A stretch of 64,000 nucleotides of DNA from Actinomycetospora termitidis (GTDB lineage: Bacteria > Actinomycetota > Actinomycetes > Mycobacteriales > Pseudonocardiaceae), in assembly GCF_030286555.1 (NCBI RefSeq), contig NZ_JASVWF010000003.1, positions 620,001 through 684,000 of the forward strand. The letters are read 5' to 3'. Positions 27,083 through 33,554 of this stretch are shown here, piece by piece. The notes beneath the pieces were generated by a model. The model searched no databases, was not told the origin of the DNA, and saw nothing but the letters and a program-made list of their open reading frames with translations. Numbering within the stretch: position 1 is the first letter of the stretch; each line of letters begins with the position of its first letter. Both the position numbers and the translations under genes were made by a program.

Positions 27083-27760
27083 GTGAACCCGTTTCCCCCG
27101 CGCCGCACCCTCCTGCTCTACGCCGAGCGACCCGCCCGCCGGATGCTGCAGGTCCTCGCGGACCTGGGCGTCGCGGTGTGGGCGGTGCTCGTGGTGACCT
27201 CGGCGATCGCGCTGCACGACGTCGTCCTCACCCTGCAGGCGCCCGGGCGCGGGCTCACCGACGCGGGCGACCGGGTCCGGGGCGTGTTCACCGGCGCCGC
27301 CGACGCCGCGGGCGGGGTGCCGTTCGTCGGCGACCGGCTCGCCGGCGCGTTCACCCCGGGCGCGGACGCCGGGACCTCGCTGGCCGACGCCGGGCGCGCG
27401 CAGGTCGAGGCCGTCGCGGCGATCGCGACGGGGCTGGCGTGGCTCGTCGTCGTGGTCGCGGCCCTGCCGGTGGTGACGACGTGGTTCTGGCTGCGGCTGC
27501 GGTGGGTCCTGCGGGCCCGGCACGCGGCGGCGGCCCGGCAGCTCGACGTCGACCTGCTGGCCCTGCGGGCCCTGACGCGGGGAGCGCCGGGGCGCATCCG
27601 GCGCGCGGCGGGGCCCTCCGGTGACGCGGCGGGAGCCTGGCGACGCGGCGACCCGCACGTGCTGCTCCGACTGGCCGACGTCGAACTGGCACGAATGGGA
27701 TTACGGGGTGCCACCTCGGTGACCACGTCCGGGGCACCGCTCACCCGGGGAGACCAGTGA
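27083..27760 (+). CDS. Hypothetical two-TM membrane protein
   Basis: This 225-residue protein has a membrane segment at about 22-48 (LADLGVAVWAVLVVTSAIAL), an extracytoplasmic Gly/Ala-rich loop of about 65 residues, and a second segment at about 112-135 (VAAIATGLAWLVVVVAALPV). A cytosolic basic tail ends in LLRLADVELARMGLR. Similar proteins are common in actinobacteria, but I know of no function. GTG 27083 follows a CCGGAG box. The codon pattern is typical of the window, supporting a real gene. Confidence 0.75.
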   Translation: MNPFPPRRTLLLYAERPARRMLQVLADLGVAVWAVLVVTSAIALHDVVLTLQAPGRGLTDAGDRVRGVFTGAADAAGGVPFVGDRLAGAFTPGADAGTSLADAGRAQVEAVAAIATGLAWLVVVVAALPVVTTWFWLRLRWVLRARHAAAARQLDVDLLALRALTRGAPGRIRRAAGPSGDAAGAWRRGDPHVLLRLADVELARMGLRGATSVTTSGAPLTRGDQ

Positions 27761-27860
27761 CACGAGCGAACTCACCTGTGTGAGACCCCGGTACGCCCTA
27801 CCCTCACCCCGACTACCGGGCCGGATCGGACCGTACGGGAAGGTAGGGGGCGTGGTCACC

Positions 27861-29168
27861 GTGAGCAGGACGGGAACGGCCGTCACGCGCGGCCTGAACG
27901 CACTGCGCTCCCGGGCGACCGGGTTCGTCGCCCGCCACTACCTCGCGTGGCGCAGTCGCCGGGGCCTCGACCCGATGTCGCTGATCCCCGATCACGCCCT
28001 CATGCCGCTGCGCCGGAACGGTCTCGACCCGGTGCCCGCCCTGCGCGAGGCCCGCGAGGACCACCCGGTCCGCGACTTCCCGCTGCCCTTCGGGGTCAAG
28101 GCGTGGCTGGTCACCGGGCACGAGGAGGCCCGCGAGGTCCTCGGGCGCACCCAGGGCTTCTCCACCGACTTCGGGCACCTCGTGGGGCGGGCGGGCATCG
28201 GCGGGGGGCAGAACCCGGGCGGTCTGGGCTTCACCGACCCGCCGGAGCACACCCGGCTGCGTCGGCTGCTGACCCCGGAGTTCACCGGCCGGCGGCTGTC
28301 GCGGCTCGGCCCGCGCATCACCGAGATCGTGGAGGGCCGGCTCGACGCGATGGCCGAGCTGGCCGAGCGGGGCGAGGAGGTGGACCTGGTCCGCGACTTC
28401 GCGACCCCGATCCCGGCGCTGACGATCTGTGAGCTCCTCGGCATCCCCTACGACGAGCGGGACGAGTTCCAGGCCCTGTCGACGGCCCGGTTCGACCTGC
28501 TGTCCGGCGCCACGGCCGTCTTCGACAAGATCTCCGAGTCGCTGGTGTACCTGCGCGGCGTCGTCGAGCGGCAGCGGATCGAGCCGGGCGAGGGCCTGCT
28601 CGGCATGCTGATCCGCGAGCACGGCGACGAGCTCGACACCGACGAGCTGGCCGAGCTCGCCGACGGACTGCTGACCGGCGGGCTGGAGACCTCCGCGTCC
28701 ATGCTCGCGCTGGGCTCGGTCATCGTGCTGCGGGACCCCGAGGTCGCGCGGATGGTGCGCGACGAGCCGGGCTCGGTGCACGGGTTCGTCGAGGAGCTGC
28801 TGCGCTACCTGACGGTGGTGCAGCTCGCGTTCCCCCGGTTCGCGACCGAGGACATGACGATCGGCGGGGTCGACATCGCCGAGGGCGACGGCGTGCTCGT
28901 GTCGCTCTCGGGCGCCGACCGCGACCCGCGCCTCACGCCGAACCCGGAGATCTTCGACCCGCGCCGCCCGCCGTCGCCGCACCTGGCCTTCGGCCACGGC
29001 ATCCACCGGTGCATCGGCGCCGAGCTGGCCCGCATGGAGCTGCGCACCGCCTACCCGGCGCTGCTGCGGCGCTTCCCCGACCTGGCGATGGCCGACGACG
29101 AGCGGACCCTGCCGCTGCGCGGCACGTCGATCGTCTACGGGGTCGACGCGTTGCCGGTGACGCTGTAG
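27861..29168 (+). CDS. Cytochrome P450
   Basis: This is a class I bacterial P450 monooxygenase of about 435 residues. Key features are the I-helix TGGLETSASM near 275 (Glu-Thr where many have Asp/Glu-Thr-Thr), EELLRYL for the K-helix ExxR, and the heme loop FGHGIHRCIGAELAR near 380 with the Cys ligand. Electrons would come from a ferredoxin and reductase not present nearby. GTG 27861 is chosen because the AGGGGG box ends 10-11 nt upstream; GTG 27852 is also possible. The substrate is unknown. It is followed by a dispersed repeat and an SRPBCC protein on the same strand. Confidence 0.92.
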   Translation: MSRTGTAVTRGLNALRSRATGFVARHYLAWRSRRGLDPMSLIPDHALMPLRRNGLDPVPALREAREDHPVRDFPLPFGVKAWLVTGHEEAREVLGRTQGFSTDFGHLVGRAGIGGGQNPGGLGFTDPPEHTRLRRLLTPEFTGRRLSRLGPRITEIVEGRLDAMAELAERGEEVDLVRDFATPIPALTICELLGIPYDERDEFQALSTARFDLLSGATAVFDKISESLVYLRGVVERQRIEPGEGLLGMLIREHGDELDTDELAELADGLLTGGLETSASMLALGSVIVLRDPEVARMVRDEPGSVHGFVEELLRYLTVVQLAFPRFATEDMTIGGVDIAEGDGVLVSLSGADRDPRLTPNPEIFDPRRPPSPHLAFGHGIHRCIGAELARMELRTAYPALLRRFPDLAMADDERTLPLRGTSIVYGVDALPVTL

Positions 29169-29178
29169 CCCCCGCTGC

Positions 29179-29212
29179 GTCAGCAGTGCGGCCATGCTGA
29201 CACTGGACGTCA
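29179..29212 (-). repeat. Dispersed repeat DR3 copy a (GTCAGCA...TGCTGAC)
   Basis: On the minus strand this reads GTCCAGTGTCAGCATGGCC followed by GCACTGCTGAC. A 7-bp stem GTCAGCA/TGCTGAC encloses a 9-nt loop. Copies at 33579-33608 and 58061-58090 match in both stem and loop, so the conserved sequence, not only the fold, matters. Confidence 0.85.
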
Positions 29213-29246
29213 TGATCGCCGGTGGTACGGGCTACCCTCCGCTCCC

Positions 29247-29684
29247 GTGAGTGATCGCCAGGTCAGCCGGAGCATCGTCGTCGACGCCCCGCCGTCGGCC
29301 GTGTTCGAGGTCCTCGCCGACCCCCGCCGGCACGGCGAGTTCGACGGCTCCGGCACCGTCCGATCGGCGATCCGCGGCCCCGAGCGCCTGTCGCTGGGTG
29401 ACACGTTCGGCATGAGCATGCGGATCGGCGTGCCGTACACGATCAGCAACACGGTCGTGGAGTTCGAGGAGGGCCGCCGCATCGCGTGGCGCCACGTCGG
29501 CCACCACCGCTGGCGCTACGAGCTCGAGCCGGTCGACGGCGGCACGCAGGTCACCGAGACGTTCGACTGGTCCGACTCGCGCGCCCCGCTGGTCCTCGAG
29601 CTGCTGCGCTACCCCGCCGTCAACACCCGCGCGATCGAGAAGACCCTCCCCCGCCTCAAGGCCTACCTCGAAGGTCGTTCCTGA
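29247..29684 (+). CDS. SRPBCC (START-like) family protein
   Basis: This 145-residue protein has the SRPBCC/polyketide-cyclase fold pattern. It opens with SRSIVVDAPPSAVFEVLADP, continues with GRRIAWRHVGHHRWRYELEP, then TQVTETFDWSDSRAP, and ends in a long C-terminal helix. Such proteins bind small hydrophobic ligands in a deep pocket, and some are cyclases. GTG 29247 gives the family N-terminus. The next gene, an alpha/beta hydrolase, starts 2 nt after its stop, so the two are translated together. A role with the upstream P450 is possible but unproven. Confidence 0.85.
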   Translation: MSDRQVSRSIVVDAPPSAVFEVLADPRRHGEFDGSGTVRSAIRGPERLSLGDTFGMSMRIGVPYTISNTVVEFEEGRRIAWRHVGHHRWRYELEPVDGGTQVTETFDWSDSRAPLVLELLRYPAVNTRAIEKTLPRLKAYLEGRS

Positions 29685-29686
29685 CG

Positions 29687-30442
29687 ATGCCGTACGCGCC
29701 GCTCGGTCAGCTGCAGGTCTACTACGAGGAGCACGGCGACGGCGGCACCCCGTTGCTGCTCGTGCCCGGCGGGCACCTGACGATCGACCTGAACTTCGCC
29801 GGGGTCCTCCCCGAGCTCTCCTCCCGACGGCGGGTCGTGGCGGTGGAGCAGCAGGGCCACGGCCGCACGGCCGACATCGACCGCACGCCCACGATCCCCG
29901 CGCTCGCGGAGGACCTGCTCGGCCTGCTCGACCACCTCGGTCTCGACCGGGTCGACGTGTGCGGGTTCTCCCTCGGCGCGCTGTCCGCGATGGAGCTGGC
30001 GATCCGGCACCCGGAGCGGGTGCGGCGCCTGGTGTTCGCCGCCGGCTTCGTCCGGGCCGGCGGCTACCACGCCGACATCACCGACCCCGATCGCTGGGCG
30101 ACCTCGACGCGCATGCCGACGAACGACGACTTCGCGGCGATGGCGCGCGAGCACGAGCGTCTCGCCCCGCCCGGGGCGGCGGGCATGGAGGCGGTCGGGG
30201 AGAAGCTCGGCCCCGTCGTCCAGGGCTTCACGGGCTGGTCCGACGACGAGCTCGCGCGGGTCGCGGCGCGCGTCCTCGTCATGATCGGCGACCACGACTT
30301 CGTCACCGTCGAGCACGCCGAGCTCACCCGTGACCTGCTGCCGGACGCGACGCTCGCCGTCGTGCCGAACTCGACCCACAACGGGCTCATGCACCGCGCC
30401 GACGTCGTCCTGCCGCTGGTCGAGGACCACCTGACCGATTGA
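29687..30442 (+). CDS. Alpha/beta hydrolase
   Basis: This 251-residue hydrolase has the nucleophile elbow GFSLGALS near residue 94, a probable acid in VMIGDHDFVT near 205 and a His in NSTHNGL near 233. The oxyanion region is PGGHLTIDL. Substrate unknown; esters or lactones are typical. ATG 29687 begins 2 nt after the SRPBCC stop. A dispersed 14-mer (29821-29836) is inside the coding region and encodes part of SSRRRV. The last 56 nt overlap the 3' end of the convergent MFS gene. Confidence 0.88.
   Translation: MPYAPLGQLQVYYEEHGDGGTPLLLVPGGHLTIDLNFAGVLPELSSRRRVVAVEQQGHGRTADIDRTPTIPALAEDLLGLLDHLGLDRVDVCGFSLGALSAMELAIRHPERVRRLVFAAGFVRAGGYHADITDPDRWATSTRMPTNDDFAAMAREHERLAPPGAAGMEAVGEKLGPVVQGFTGWSDDELARVAARVLVMIGDHDFVTVEHAELTRDLLPDATLAVVPNSTHNGLMHRADVVLPLVEDHLTD
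29821..29836 (+). repeat. 14-mer repeat copy 5
   Basis: CTCCCGACGGCGGGTC in the alpha/beta hydrolase gene; encodes SRRRV. Confidence 0.8.
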
Positions 30443-31799
30443 CGAGGACGAGCACGACGGCGGCCGCGGGCAGGAGCGCGACGGCCCCGAGCGCCCCGGA
30501 CGTCCCGACGACGGCGAGCAGGCCACCCACCGCGGCCGGACCGACGGCCCCGCCCTCGAACACCACGAAGTTGAGCAGGCCGGCGGCGACGGTCCGGTCG
30601 TCCGCGGCCACGAGGTCCGGGACGAGGCCGGTGACGACGGCCTGCGCACCCGCGAACCCAACCACGGTCAGCGCCGTCCCCCCGACGGTGACGACGACAC
30701 CCGCTCCCCCGACCGGGACGGCGACGAGCAGGACGCCCAGCGCCGTCAGCCCCGCGAGCCCGCCGAGGACCCGCCACGCGCCGAGGCGCTGCACCGTCGG
30801 GCCGACGATCCGCCCGGCCAGCACGGCGCAGGCCGCCGCGGGGACGAGCACGGCACCGGCGACGAGGCTGCCGCCGCCGACGGCCTGCTGCACGAGTGCG
30901 GGCGCCACGAACAGCACGCCGTAGTAGCCGGCGAAGACCGCACCGCCCGCCGCTCCCGCGACCACGAGCCCCGGCGCCGCGACCACGCGCCGCGGCACGA
31001 AGCCGTCGGGGCGGGTCCGCACACCCCGCCACACGACCGCGACCGCGACGACACCGGCGACGCCCACGACGGCGGCCACGCTCACCGGCAGCCCGACCGC
31101 GCGGGTCTGCAGCAGGACGACCGCTGCGGCGGCGACCGTCGTGAGGGCCGCGGCACCGGGTACGTCGGCCCGCCCGCCCGTCGGGTCGCGCGGTTCCGGA
31201 ACCGCCCGGAGGGTCCCGCGGCCGAGGACCCCGACCAGGAGCAGGACGGGCAGGGCGATCGCCGGGAACGCGAGCACCACGCGCCATCCCGCCCAGGCGT
31301 CCAGTGCGCCGCCGAGCAGCGTGCCCAGGGCCGACGAGGTCCCGGTCGCGGCCGCGACCGTCCCGAGAGCGCGCAACCGGGCCCGGGCCGGGAGAGCGCC
31401 GGGCAGCGTGAACGCACCGATCGTGGCCGCCCCGGCACCGGCGCCACCGATCAGCCGGCCGACGACGACCACGGTCAGCGTCGGCGCGAGGGCGGCGACG
31501 ACGGACCCGAGCGCCACCAGCGTCATGCCGGCGACGAGCAGCCCCCGAGGTCCCCGGCGGGCGGCCCACCGCCCGGCGAGCGGCATGGTGGCCGCCGACG
31601 TCAGGGCCCAGCCGGCGAGCACCCACGCCGTCGCCCCGAACGGCACCCCGAGGTCGTCGGCGACACGGGGCAGCGTCACCGACGGGGCGCCCACGGAGAC
31701 GAACAGCGGCAGGACCGCCACCCCGAGCAGCAGGCCGAGCCGCGCACCGGTCCGTTCCGCCCCGTCGTCGTGACCCGGGGGAAGCGTGTCCTGGGTCAT
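30387..31799 (-). CDS. MFS transporter, DHA2 (drug efflux) type
   Basis: This 470-residue permease has about 14 hydrophobic segments. The motif GRWAARRGPRGLLVAG lies between segments 2 and 3, and GRLIGGAGAGAATIGAF near segment 4. These fit the drug:H+ antiporter DHA2 family. ATG 31799 overlaps the TGA of the epoxide hydrolase gene by ATGA, so the two are translationally coupled. A role exporting an epoxide or its product is a fair guess from this coupling. The 3' end overlaps the convergent hydrolase gene by 56 nt. Confidence 0.88.
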   Translation of the reverse strand: MTQDTLPPGHDDGAERTGARLGLLLGVAVLPLFVSVGAPSVTLPRVADDLGVPFGATAWVLAGWALTSAATMPLAGRWAARRGPRGLLVAGMTLVALGSVVAALAPTLTVVVVGRLIGGAGAGAATIGAFTLPGALPARARLRALGTVAAATGTSSALGTLLGGALDAWAGWRVVLAFPAIALPVLLLVGVLGRGTLRAVPEPRDPTGGRADVPGAAALTTVAAAAVVLLQTRAVGLPVSVAAVVGVAGVVAVAVVWRGVRTRPDGFVPRRVVAAPGLVVAGAAGGAVFAGYYGVLFVAPALVQQAVGGGSLVAGAVLVPAAACAVLAGRIVGPTVQRLGAWRVLGGLAGLTALGVLLVAVPVGGAGVVVTVGGTALTVVGFAGAQAVVTGLVPDLVAADDRTVAAGLLNFVVFEGGAVGPAAVGGLLAVVGTSGALGAVALLPAAAVVLVLVNRSGGPRPAAGRRRRGA

Positions 31800-32926
31800 C
31801 CGCGGAACGCCGCCCGGAGCTCGCCGACGAGGAGGTCGGGCACCTCGAGCGCGGGGAAGTGTCCGCCGCGGTCGAGGACGTTCCAGTGATACAGCCCGGT
31901 GTAGCGCGCCTCGATCCACGCGCGCGGCAGCTTCGTCATCTCCGCGGGGAAGTACGAGACCGCGGTGGGCACGTCGACCGGCTCGGTGGCGTTGCCGAAG
32001 CTCGCCCAGCTCTCCCAGTACAACCGCGCCGAGGAGGCCGCGGACGCCGTCAGCCAGTAGGTCGTCACGATGTCGAGCACGCGGTCGACCGGCACCGCGC
32101 CGAAGCCGGGGCCGTCGGTCCACGCCTCGAACTTCTCGGCGATCCACGCGAGCTGCCCGGCCGGGGAGTCGACCAGGGCGTAGCCGAGGGTCTGCGGGCG
32201 AGTGCTCTGTTCTTCGGCGTAGCCGCGGTTCGTCCTGCCGTAGGCCTCGCCGGCGGCGAGCCACCCGCGCTCCTGGTCGGTCAGCGTCGCGTCGTCGACG
32301 CCGTCCGGCCGCGGCGCCCTCGGCATCGTCGTGTGCAGGGCCTCCACCCGGTCGGGATGGCGGACCCCGAGCGCCGTCGTGACCATCGCGCCCCAGTCGC
32401 CGCCGTGGGCGAGGAAGCGGTCGTACCCCAGCCGGGTCATCAGTTCGGCCCAGGCGTCGGCGATCGCCTCCACGCCCCACCCGGGACCGGTCGGTCTGTC
32501 GCTGAACCCGAAGCCGGGCAACGACGGAGCGACGACGTGGAAGGCGGGCAGCTCGTCCGAGCCGGGGTCGACCAGGGCGTCGACGATCCCGAGGACCTCC
32601 ACGACCGAGCTGGGCCACCCGTGCGTCACGAGCAGCGGGCGGGCGTCGGCCCGCGCGGAGCGCACGTGCAGCAGGTGGATGCCGAGACCGTCGACCTCGG
32701 TGCGGAACTGGGCGTGCCGGTTGATCTCCGCCTCGACCCGACGCCAGTCGTGGTCGGAGAGCCAGGACCGCCGGAGTTCGGCCATCGTGTCGAGCGCGAT
32801 GCCCTGCGACGGATCGGTGGCCGGCTCCGGGAACCGGGTCCGGCGCAACCGCTCCCGCAGATCGTCCAGGGCCGTCTCGGGGACGTCGAGCACGAAGGGC
32901 GTCAGGGTCTCGTCGTCGGTCGGCAC
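31796..32926 (-). CDS. Epoxide hydrolase (EHN-type alpha/beta hydrolase)
   Basis: This 376-residue protein has an N-terminal epoxide-hydrolase domain (ETALDDLRERLRRTRFPEP) and an alpha/beta-hydrolase core. Motifs are THGWPSSVVE near 113 for the oxyanion hole, HGGDWGAMVTT near 193 with the nucleophile Asp, and RGGHFPALE near 360 with the catalytic His. It would open epoxides to diols. GTG 32926 has GAGGAGGG directly upstream; a start at 32971 would put codons inside the inverted repeat at 32941-32972 and is not preferred. It is the first gene of a two-gene operon with the MFS exporter. Confidence 0.88.
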   Translation of the reverse strand: MPTDDETLTPFVLDVPETALDDLRERLRRTRFPEPATDPSQGIALDTMAELRRSWLSDHDWRRVEAEINRHAQFRTEVDGLGIHLLHVRSARADARPLLVTHGWPSSVVEVLGIVDALVDPGSDELPAFHVVAPSLPGFGFSDRPTGPGWGVEAIADAWAELMTRLGYDRFLAHGGDWGAMVTTALGVRHPDRVEALHTTMPRAPRPDGVDDATLTDQERGWLAAGEAYGRTNRGYAEEQSTRPQTLGYALVDSPAGQLAWIAEKFEAWTDGPGFGAVPVDRVLDIVTTYWLTASAASSARLYWESWASFGNATEPVDVPTAVSYFPAEMTKLPRAWIEARYTGLYHWNVLDRGGHFPALEVPDLLVGELRAAFRG

Positions 32927-32940
32927 ACGGCCCTCCTCGT

Positions 32941-32972
32941 CGTGACACACTAAGAACAGTTCGCGTGTCACG
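32941..32972. promoter_or_regulatory. Perfect 8-bp inverted repeat, predicted operator of the CGNR regulator
   Basis: CGTGACAC-N16-GTGTCACG sits between the divergent epoxide hydrolase operon and the CGNR-type regulator gene. A further partial half, ACACGTCA, follows at 32991-32998. The layout suggests autoregulation and control of the operon by the adjacent gene product. Confidence 0.65.
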
Positions 32973-32999
32973 TTAGGAGCCCGAGGAGTTACACGTCAA

Positions 33000-33554
33000 A
33001 TGCTGAACGCGTATCACAGTGCAGGGGTGGACCTGGCCGTCGACCTCGCCAACACCCTCCGGCCGATCCGTGGGGAGGACCACCTCGACTCGACGGACGC
33101 CCTGCGCACGTTCCTCGAGGAGCACCTGCCGGACGACCAGCTCGACGAACCGCCAAACGAGCACGACCTCGAGGCGGTCCGGGCGGTGCGGGCCACGGTC
33201 CGTGAGGCGCTCGAACGGGCCGCCGAGGCCCCGGAGCTCGTCGCCCGGCTCGTCAACGAGGGGCTGTGCGAGCACCGGGCGGTCCCGCAGCTGCAGCGCG
33301 ACGGGGACGGGTGGCGCCTCGACAACGTCGTGGAGGGCGGCGGGCACGCGGCTCGTCTGGCGGTGCGGGCGCTGGACGGGCTGGCCGCCGTCCTCGTCGA
33401 GTACGGGCCGGACCGCCTCGGCGCCTGCGCGTCACCGACCTGCCGGTCGACGTTCGCGGACCTGTCGAAGAACGGCTCCAAGCAGTACTGCAGCCGGGGG
33501 TGCGCCCACCGCGCGAGCGTAGCGGCCTACCGGTCCCGGCGACGGTCGTCGTGA
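33000..33554 (+). CDS. CGNR zinc-finger / ABATE domain putative regulator
   Basis: This 184-residue protein has an N-terminal ABATE-like region (VDLAVDLANTLRPI onward) that may sense a ligand. A C-terminal CGNR-type zinc finger reads CASPTCRSTFADLSKNGSKQ and continues into YCSRGCAHRASVAAYR, with four Cys as metal ligands. The domain pair is usual for actinobacterial regulators next to stress or catabolic genes. ATG 33000 has GAGGAG 14-19 nt upstream, a long but usable spacing. It faces the epoxide hydrolase-MFS operon across a perfect inverted repeat. Confidence 0.85.
   Translation: MLNAYHSAGVDLAVDLANTLRPIRGEDHLDSTDALRTFLEEHLPDDQLDEPPNEHDLEAVRAVRATVREALERAAEAPELVARLVNEGLCEHRAVPQLQRDGDGWRLDNVVEGGGHAARLAVRALDGLAAVLVEYGPDRLGACASPTCRSTFADLSKNGSKQYCSRGCAHRASVAAYRSRRRSS

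Follow-up and report, generated by a model that had tools for sequence, protein, structure and literature searches.

Local repressors of the TetR and MarR type are autoregulated and face a divergent exporter and enzyme across an inverted-repeat operator. The same logic, a regulator facing an efflux and detoxification operon, is found at a CGNR/ABATE regulator gene in a 64,000-nt stretch of the Actinomycetospora termitidis genome (positions 620,001 to 684,000 of contig NZ_JASVWF010000003.1; this whole stretch is hereafter the window). Unlike the TetR and MarR proteins, however, this regulator carries a treble-clef zinc finger instead of a helix-turn-helix, and it adds a predicted operator that spans the start codon and the first codons of its own gene. 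We propose that the CGNR regulator, two operators (O1 and O2), an exporter and an epoxide hydrolase probably form a local, self-controlled detoxification switch.

Structural knowledge of the CGNR/ABATE family dates from 2009 with Jann_2411 (3h0n), the founding structure of the ABATE/CGNR zinc-finger family and a member of the same two-domain family as the window regulator. Its authors describe a probable dimer whose interface contains a deep cavity, and propose that ligands control its DNA binding (PMC2954205). The part of that paper available to us gives no DNA site, target gene or ligand, whereas for the window regulator a site, its architecture and its targets can be predicted. No operator or ligand for any CGNR/ABATE member was found in the literature searched, which was accessible in part and left subscription publications mostly outside its reach; the available portions of PMC3485107, PMC4260502 and PMC9976334 are table lines merely naming a CGNR protein. 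Searches combining CGNR with epoxide hydrolase, trioxacarcin with epoxide hydrolase, and epoxide hydrolase and major facilitator superfamily (MFS) exporter with self-resistance gave no lead. With probable operators kept in dozens of related species, a binding rule for this little-studied family becomes directly testable.

The epoxide hydrolase of the window is similar over its full length to the EHN-type (microsomal-like) hydrolases 5f4z, 4i19, 3g02 and 1qo7 (E 8e-91 to 4e-59), and the HGWP, GGD and GGH motif regions of 5f4z and 4i19 align with it. Its closest kin found are same-genus enzymes known from sequence alone.

Putative operators around the regulator start

The regulator gene (33000-33554, + strand, 184 aa) is divergent from a gene for an EHN-type epoxide hydrolase (31796-32926, - strand), behind which lies the gene for an MFS exporter (30387-31799, - strand). 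The original prediction, made from the letters of the window, had located a module at 31796-33554, an interval that takes in the regulator and hydrolase but leaves the exporter outside; the ATGA overlap that it described between hydrolase stop and MFS start lies at 31796-31799. The hydrolase very probably starts at the GTG at 32924-32926, which is preceded by the Shine-Dalgarno (SD) sequence GAGGAGG (32932-32938). Another GTG at 32971, from the list of open reading frames (ORFs), was rejected as the start, as the ORF would traverse the repeat and O1.

The perfect inverted repeat on which the original prediction was built, CGTGACAC-N16-GTGTCACG, is present at 32941-32972 with zero mismatches. 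It does not fill the divergent region as had been claimed, covering only 32 of the 73 bp between the genes, and it is not the only site. O1 (32942-32971), found by repeat search and locus comparison, consists of the half-sites S1 (GTGACAC, 32942-32948) and S2 (GTGTCAC, 32965-32971), 16 nt apart. Overlooked in the single-operator view was O2 (32988-33017), 46 bp away and recognised by locus comparison and a codon test, with the half-sites S3 (GTTACAC, 32988-32994) and S4 (GTATCAC, 33011-33017), likewise 16 nt apart. The four half-sites alternate in orientation at a 23-bp step, starting at 32942, 32965, 32988 and 33011, and O2 straddles the regulator start codon with S4 within codons 4-6. O2 equals O1 at 19 of 30 bases, a score that only O2 itself reaches among the 63,939 30-mers of the window's + strand.

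GTGACAC-N16-GTGTCAC matches the 6.56-Mb genome perfectly only at O1, and with a single mismatch at one other place. Allowing up to two mismatches gives 13 places, O2 among the two-mismatch matches, against 2 for the reversed control. Another two-mismatch match, at 27757-27786, adjoins the start of a cytochrome P450 gene, possibly by chance given 13 such places in the genome. The inverted repeat is not significant on its own, and that argument was rejected: perfect 8-bp inverted repeats with 0-30 nt spacers are common in the window (257 pairs, against 164-219 in Markov-1 random sequences), 84 of 913 70-bp tiles hold one, and the predicted pattern, with up to 3 mismatches, occurs twice in the window against a shuffle mean of 0.97, at least two being found in 22 of 100 shuffles. 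The significance of the repeat comes from its position and conservation, not from the repeat itself.

Conservation was assessed at 51 loci, namely the window and 50 of 58 that were fetched from genus mates and named genomes, eight having been dropped as fragments or distant paralogues without a start anchor. The 58 were retrieved by two short peptide patterns, one of them in the zinc finger, and are a biased sample in which Streptomyces is dominant. Loci were anchored on the start context GTCAA-NTG, so that the invariance of GTCAA is partly by construction. The position of O1 was set by choosing the best pair with a 23-bp step, and its spacing was tested independently by a free spacer scan. 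Upstream of the regulator, O1 is present with at most two mismatches in 14 bases at all 51 anchored loci, from 12 named actinobacterial genera, a positive outcome of the search for the repeat at orthologous loci that had been suggested as a check. O2, with at most two mismatches per half-site, is present at 50 (the exception is L077). Over the 51 loci the half-sites take the forms GTGACAC (S1), GTGTCAC (S2), GTTACAC or GAGAYAC (S3) and mostly GTRTYAC (S4). The spacer scan (GTGACA[CT].{d}GTGT.AC, d from 8 to 29 nt) returned 16 nt at 47 loci and no other length at any; at each of the remaining four, a single base departs from the scanned pattern. The distance from S2 to S3 is 23 at 43 loci and 22 at eight (L077 counted). 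Because the O1 spacer is only ever 16 nt while the S2-S3 distance varies between 22 and 23, the predicted operator pairs are rigid units.

Clustering of the regulators at 80% identity left 15 representatives, among them L081, whose shortened regulator ORF (135 aa) may explain its having a cluster of its own. All 15 have GTGACA in columns 1-6 of S1, TGT.AC in S2, and a TAnG after S2 (TAGG at 32974-32977 in the window) that is possibly part of a -10 element; outside these, information falls below 1 bit in 11 of the 16 spacer columns and in all 30 outer flank columns. The G of TAnG is absent in two of the five order-level orthologues described below.

Codon 5 of the regulator lies in S4. It reads TAT at 27 of 27 loci with Tyr and TGT at 22 of 22 with Cys, the remaining two loci having GGT and CGT. 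Elsewhere in the regulator genes, TAT accounts for 2 of 115 Tyr codons and TGT for 38 of 248 Cys codons (Fisher 5e-27 for Tyr and 1e-16 for Cys; 2e-7 and 3e-7 on the representatives). Since the amino acid at codon 5 changes while the DNA pattern stays, against the gene's preference for TAC and TGC, the putative operator O2 is conserved as DNA.

Site and regulator across genomes and subfamilies

The pattern GTGACAY-N16-GTGTNAC-NN-TA was found in 46 of the 50 module genomes, at one place in each (read on both strands in one genome), and the reversed control in none of the 50. That single place is the CGNR locus, because the CGNR locus itself holds the pattern. The four genomes without it (L044, L048, L072 and L075) each differ by a single base in S1 or S2.

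Profile searches of Streptomyces and of the window's order were independent of the peptide patterns. Among 199 Streptomyces genomes, seven contain the O1 pattern and the same seven an orthologue of the regulator at E<1e-70 (Fisher 5e-13); four of these were already among the 51 loci and three are new. In a further 131 Streptomyces the CGNR matches are limited to E ~1e-30 to 1e-34, and the site is absent. Five of 298 genomes of the order encode an orthologue (E<1e-70), two of them new, and on inspection all five have O1 and four have O2. A stricter O1 pattern ending in TANG occurs in two of these five and nowhere else in the 298; in four more genomes of the order, CGNR matches at E ~1e-32 are found with the site absent. 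A class-wide search at E<=1e-40 recovered an orthologue in one of 296 genomes, the window itself. The rare and scattered occurrence of the module suggests horizontal spread. The original prediction that the repeat acts like the regulator's own operator is supported by the one-to-one match with the orthologous regulator and by the conserved position, and we hold with high confidence that the CGNR protein would bind O1 and O2.

Comparable arrangements were detected in two other groups of CGNR genes. Subfamily 2, from Streptomyces, was examined at 48 loci, the eight returned (L145-L152) and the 40 that come next by E-value (L185-L224) in the Streptomyces profile search. Judged from translations at eight loci, clearly so in five of them, it is divergent from a class I methyltransferase-like gene. 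An upstream pair, GTAA[TG]-N21-[ACG]TTAC, occurs at 46 of 48 loci; over scanned spacings of 15-34, a spacing of 21 was found in 46, 20 in two, 26 in one and all others in none. A second pair, GTAAG-N21-ATTAC, lies across the start codon in 44 of 48 and ends in codons 5-6, at a distance of 23 to 39 from the first. Codon 5 is TAT in 39 loci, TAC in one, CAT in five and TCT in three, against 11 TAT and 101 TAC among later Tyr codons. Subfamily 3 consists of paralogues within the window's genus; all 12 loci show GTAAG-N21-ATTAC, and five of them show the upstream pair by the strict pattern.

It appears rather likely that several actinobacterial CGNR/ABATE subfamilies share an operator grammar. In this grammar there are two inverted pairs whose internal spacing is fixed; the first lies upstream, and the second spans the start codon of the regulator gene itself, where its last half-site dictates codons within the first eight. 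Each subfamily has its own half-site and step (GTGACAC with 23 bp, GTAAG with 26 bp). Not all CGNR-like loci follow this grammar; the GTAAG pair was sought in 14 others of the genus (L009, L010, L020, L021 and L025-L034) and not found. With exact 30-bp sites, a codon signature and two kinds of half-site among three subfamilies, it becomes possible to test DNA binding, autoregulation and the recognition rule. By eye, more distant CGNR genes of Klenkia (L085 and L087) and Goekera (L086) are preceded by other inverted repeats, CCCTACG...CGTAGGG and GGCGGTCAA...TTGACCGCC. Also by eye, a recurring set of TGAC/GTCA boxes surrounds the CGNR start codon at L100-L103, from other families of the order (GTCAACATG or GTCAAATG, then CATGAC), perhaps the site of a further subfamily.

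Proteins, gene order and two hydrolase lineages

Pfam matches back the gene identities of the original prediction. Both regulator domains, ABATE (PF07336, 2.5e-14) and zf-CGNR (PF11706, 1.9e-14), pass their curated cut-offs (54.4 and 53.6 bits against 24.4 and 24). The treble-clef zinc-finger cysteines C143, C148, C164 and C168 are invariant across 30 alignment rows; one of the retrieval peptides, S[RK]NGSKQY, falls in the finger, so retrieval accounts in part for the invariance of this stretch. The AlphaFold2 model of the regulator has a mean predicted local distance difference test score (pLDDT) of 82.7, with values under 50 for most residues of the finger stretch 165-184. Compared with the PDB by Foldseek, it has 3h0n as its sole match below 0.001 (E 1.5e-8, template modelling (TM) score 0.73, root-mean-square deviation 5.3), and a profile search also links the regulator to 3h0n (E 2.3e-19). 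Judged from its model, the regulator has the ABATE fold, as does Jann_2411.

The hydrolase has an EHN domain (PF06441, 110.8 bits, 4.7e-32) and an Abhydrolase_1 domain (PF00561, 59.9 bits, 4e-16), and its closest PDB entry is 5f4z (8.4e-91). Residues D178, H103-G104-W105, H357 and Y304, in a numbering that runs one ahead of that from the GTG start, are kept in 44-45 of 46 aligned rows; we take them to be the Asp nucleophile in GGD, the HGWP loop, the catalytic His and the lid Tyr. The exporter matches MFS_1 (PF07690, 119.2 bits against a cut-off of 33.4, 2.4e-34). When it was compared with NCBIfam as a test for DHA2-type drug exporters, none among the 25 families listed, out of 28, reached its cut-off, the best being BagJ_FevB at 127.3 against 800.

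Gene orders were derived from ORF and BLAST calls; some ORFs come out short or overlong (e.g., L055, L057 and L070), and absences are unsure at L061, with only 2805 bases, and at L072, with only 746 bases, both being short in upstream sequence. The association of regulator, exporter and hydrolase that had been predicted is conserved over the 51 loci, with at least part of a hydrolase in the divergent unit of 47 (one of them, L072, by tblastn) and the exporter in 44. Its arrangement in the window is another matter, as both gene order and hydrolase are exceptional rather than typical. The usual order is exporter then hydrolase (39 loci, counting L058 and L035 with their damaged hydrolases); at seven the hydrolase comes first with no exporter seen (L041, L053, L064, L075 and L077, and by tblastn L072 and L080), and hydrolase followed by exporter occurs in the window only. 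Two congeners have 85-86% identical exporters that directly face the CGNR gene.

The window also departs from the usual module in having no orthologous hydrolase behind the exporter. In the rows compared, the module hydrolases of Streptomyces, Nocardia, Amycolatopsis, Pseudonocardia and Catenulispora share 81-95% identity, and the window hydrolase is only 50-52% identical to them. The hydrolase remnant of the close relative L035 resembles the module enzymes at 69-72% and the window enzyme at 48%. We built a tree of 54 rows from the window hydrolase, 22 of 45 module enzymes and 31 genus enzymes, with long ORFs cut to the last 380-400 residues. The window hydrolase falls in a genus clade (support 99/99), its exact place inside that clade being weakly supported (85/69), whereas a second clade (100/100) unites the module enzymes with the L035 remnant and with four genus enzymes, including one from the window's own genome. 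The L035 and window rows are long branches. Lying outside the module clade, the window hydrolase was rejected as a module orthologue. Relatives of it at 71-73% identity occur in ten genus mates at other genome places, and neither an operator nor any of the window's other genes was found in their 1.5-kb flanks. The window's genome holds four matches to the window hydrolase, itself included. A module-clade epoxide hydrolase (L155) is encoded in that genome far from the locus, at 194653-195753 of contig C11 (genome G000).

At the window, a second epoxide hydrolase lineage is therefore placed behind the same regulator, directly at the putative O1. Two hydrolase lineages on one regulator favour epoxide-type chemistry, and we infer that the role of the module includes hydrolysing an epoxide-like group. 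Whether the substrate of the module bears an epoxide we regard as evenly balanced, and that an epoxide is itself the inducer is doubtful. The original description of the module as epoxide-responsive is plausible, and is helped by the joining of two different hydrolase lineages to it. This double recruitment points to an inducer class to try.

A proposed switch and its alternatives

We hypothesize that the CGNR protein would act as a dimer on each operator. From O1, between the divergent genes, it would control the hydrolase-exporter unit and the promoter region of the regulator; from O2, which covers the regulator's start codon together with its ribosome-binding site and codons 4-6, it would control the regulator itself. 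Repression in both directions is most likely, with release upon binding of a toxic small molecule to the ABATE domain, after which the exporter would remove the compound and the hydrolase would open its epoxide or an epoxide metabolite. Autorepression by the CGNR protein is, by itself, quite probable.

A number of observations weigh against this switch. Repression is assumed from position, and sequence alone cannot decide between it and activation. L077 has a perfect O1 and no recognisable O2, which indicates that O2 is not indispensable. S3 varies, the GTCAA behind it being better conserved, and O2 is less sharply bounded than O1. The arms of O1 show no co-variation, and Streptomyces O1 is typically GTGACAT...GTGTAAC, which is no perfect dyad. 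Each half-site is in itself near-palindromic (GTG-N-CAC), so that the term inverted repeat hangs on the central base. Four of the 51 loci have an exporter and no hydrolase (L036, L052, L061 and L069), and damaged hydrolases include two ORFs at L058, the 225-aa remnant at L035 (corresponding to residues 185-375 of the window enzyme) and two overlapping tblastn pieces at L057. By these gene calls the hydrolase is not indispensable to the module, and the window hydrolase might be there by chance.

This last point leads to the foremost alternative, possible but on balance unlikely, in which the module guards against a drug unrelated to epoxides and the window hydrolase is an accidental neighbour. 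Such a view fits the lack of orthology between window and module hydrolases, and also two relatives (75-77%) in which the exporter directly faces the regulator, one without a hydrolase and the other with a fragment only. However, an EHN-type hydrolase, or at least part of one, recurs in the divergent unit across nearly all loci (47 of 51), and the landing of a second-lineage hydrolase at the same operator would be unlikely without a shared function.

An improbable variant is that the CGNR protein activates the exporter-hydrolase genes and represses only itself, through O2. The divergent region that holds O1 is a place where an activator could also sit, but S1 in the window ends three bases before the hydrolase SD, and this spacing suits a block better than a boost.

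We give very little weight to the idea that the four boxes serve the divergent genes as parts of promoter, ribosome-binding site and start region, and are not regulator sites. The intergenic region is indeed short, S3 overlaps the SD region of the regulator, TAnG follows S2, and the GTCAA ahead of the start codon is better conserved than S3. These features would not account for boxes that alternate in orientation at a fixed distance, for the copying of O1 by O2 over 19 of 30 bases, for an O1 pattern that occurs once per genome and only beside this CGNR regulator, or for S4, which lies inside coding sequence with a codon choice opposing usual usage. In addition, a sigma-70 consensus scan of 32880-33060 found no promoter.

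Least likely of all is an RNA hairpin of S3 and S4 controlling translation around the start codon, with O1 unrelated: the two half-sites are largely complementary and enclose the start codon, but the stem partners S3 base 5 and S4 base 3 do not co-vary (C-A 19, C-G 16, T-A 8, T-G 8; n=51), for which reason O2 as an RNA stem was rejected, and O1 has the same sequence ahead of the gene, with a first half that the gene's transcript would hardly include.

On the far side of the exporter, genes for a P450, an SRPBCC protein (Polyketide_cyc2) and an alpha/beta-hydrolase lie consecutively at 27780-30442 (+ strand), convergent with the exporter gene. The last gene of this row and the exporter gene overlap tail to tail at 30387-30442.

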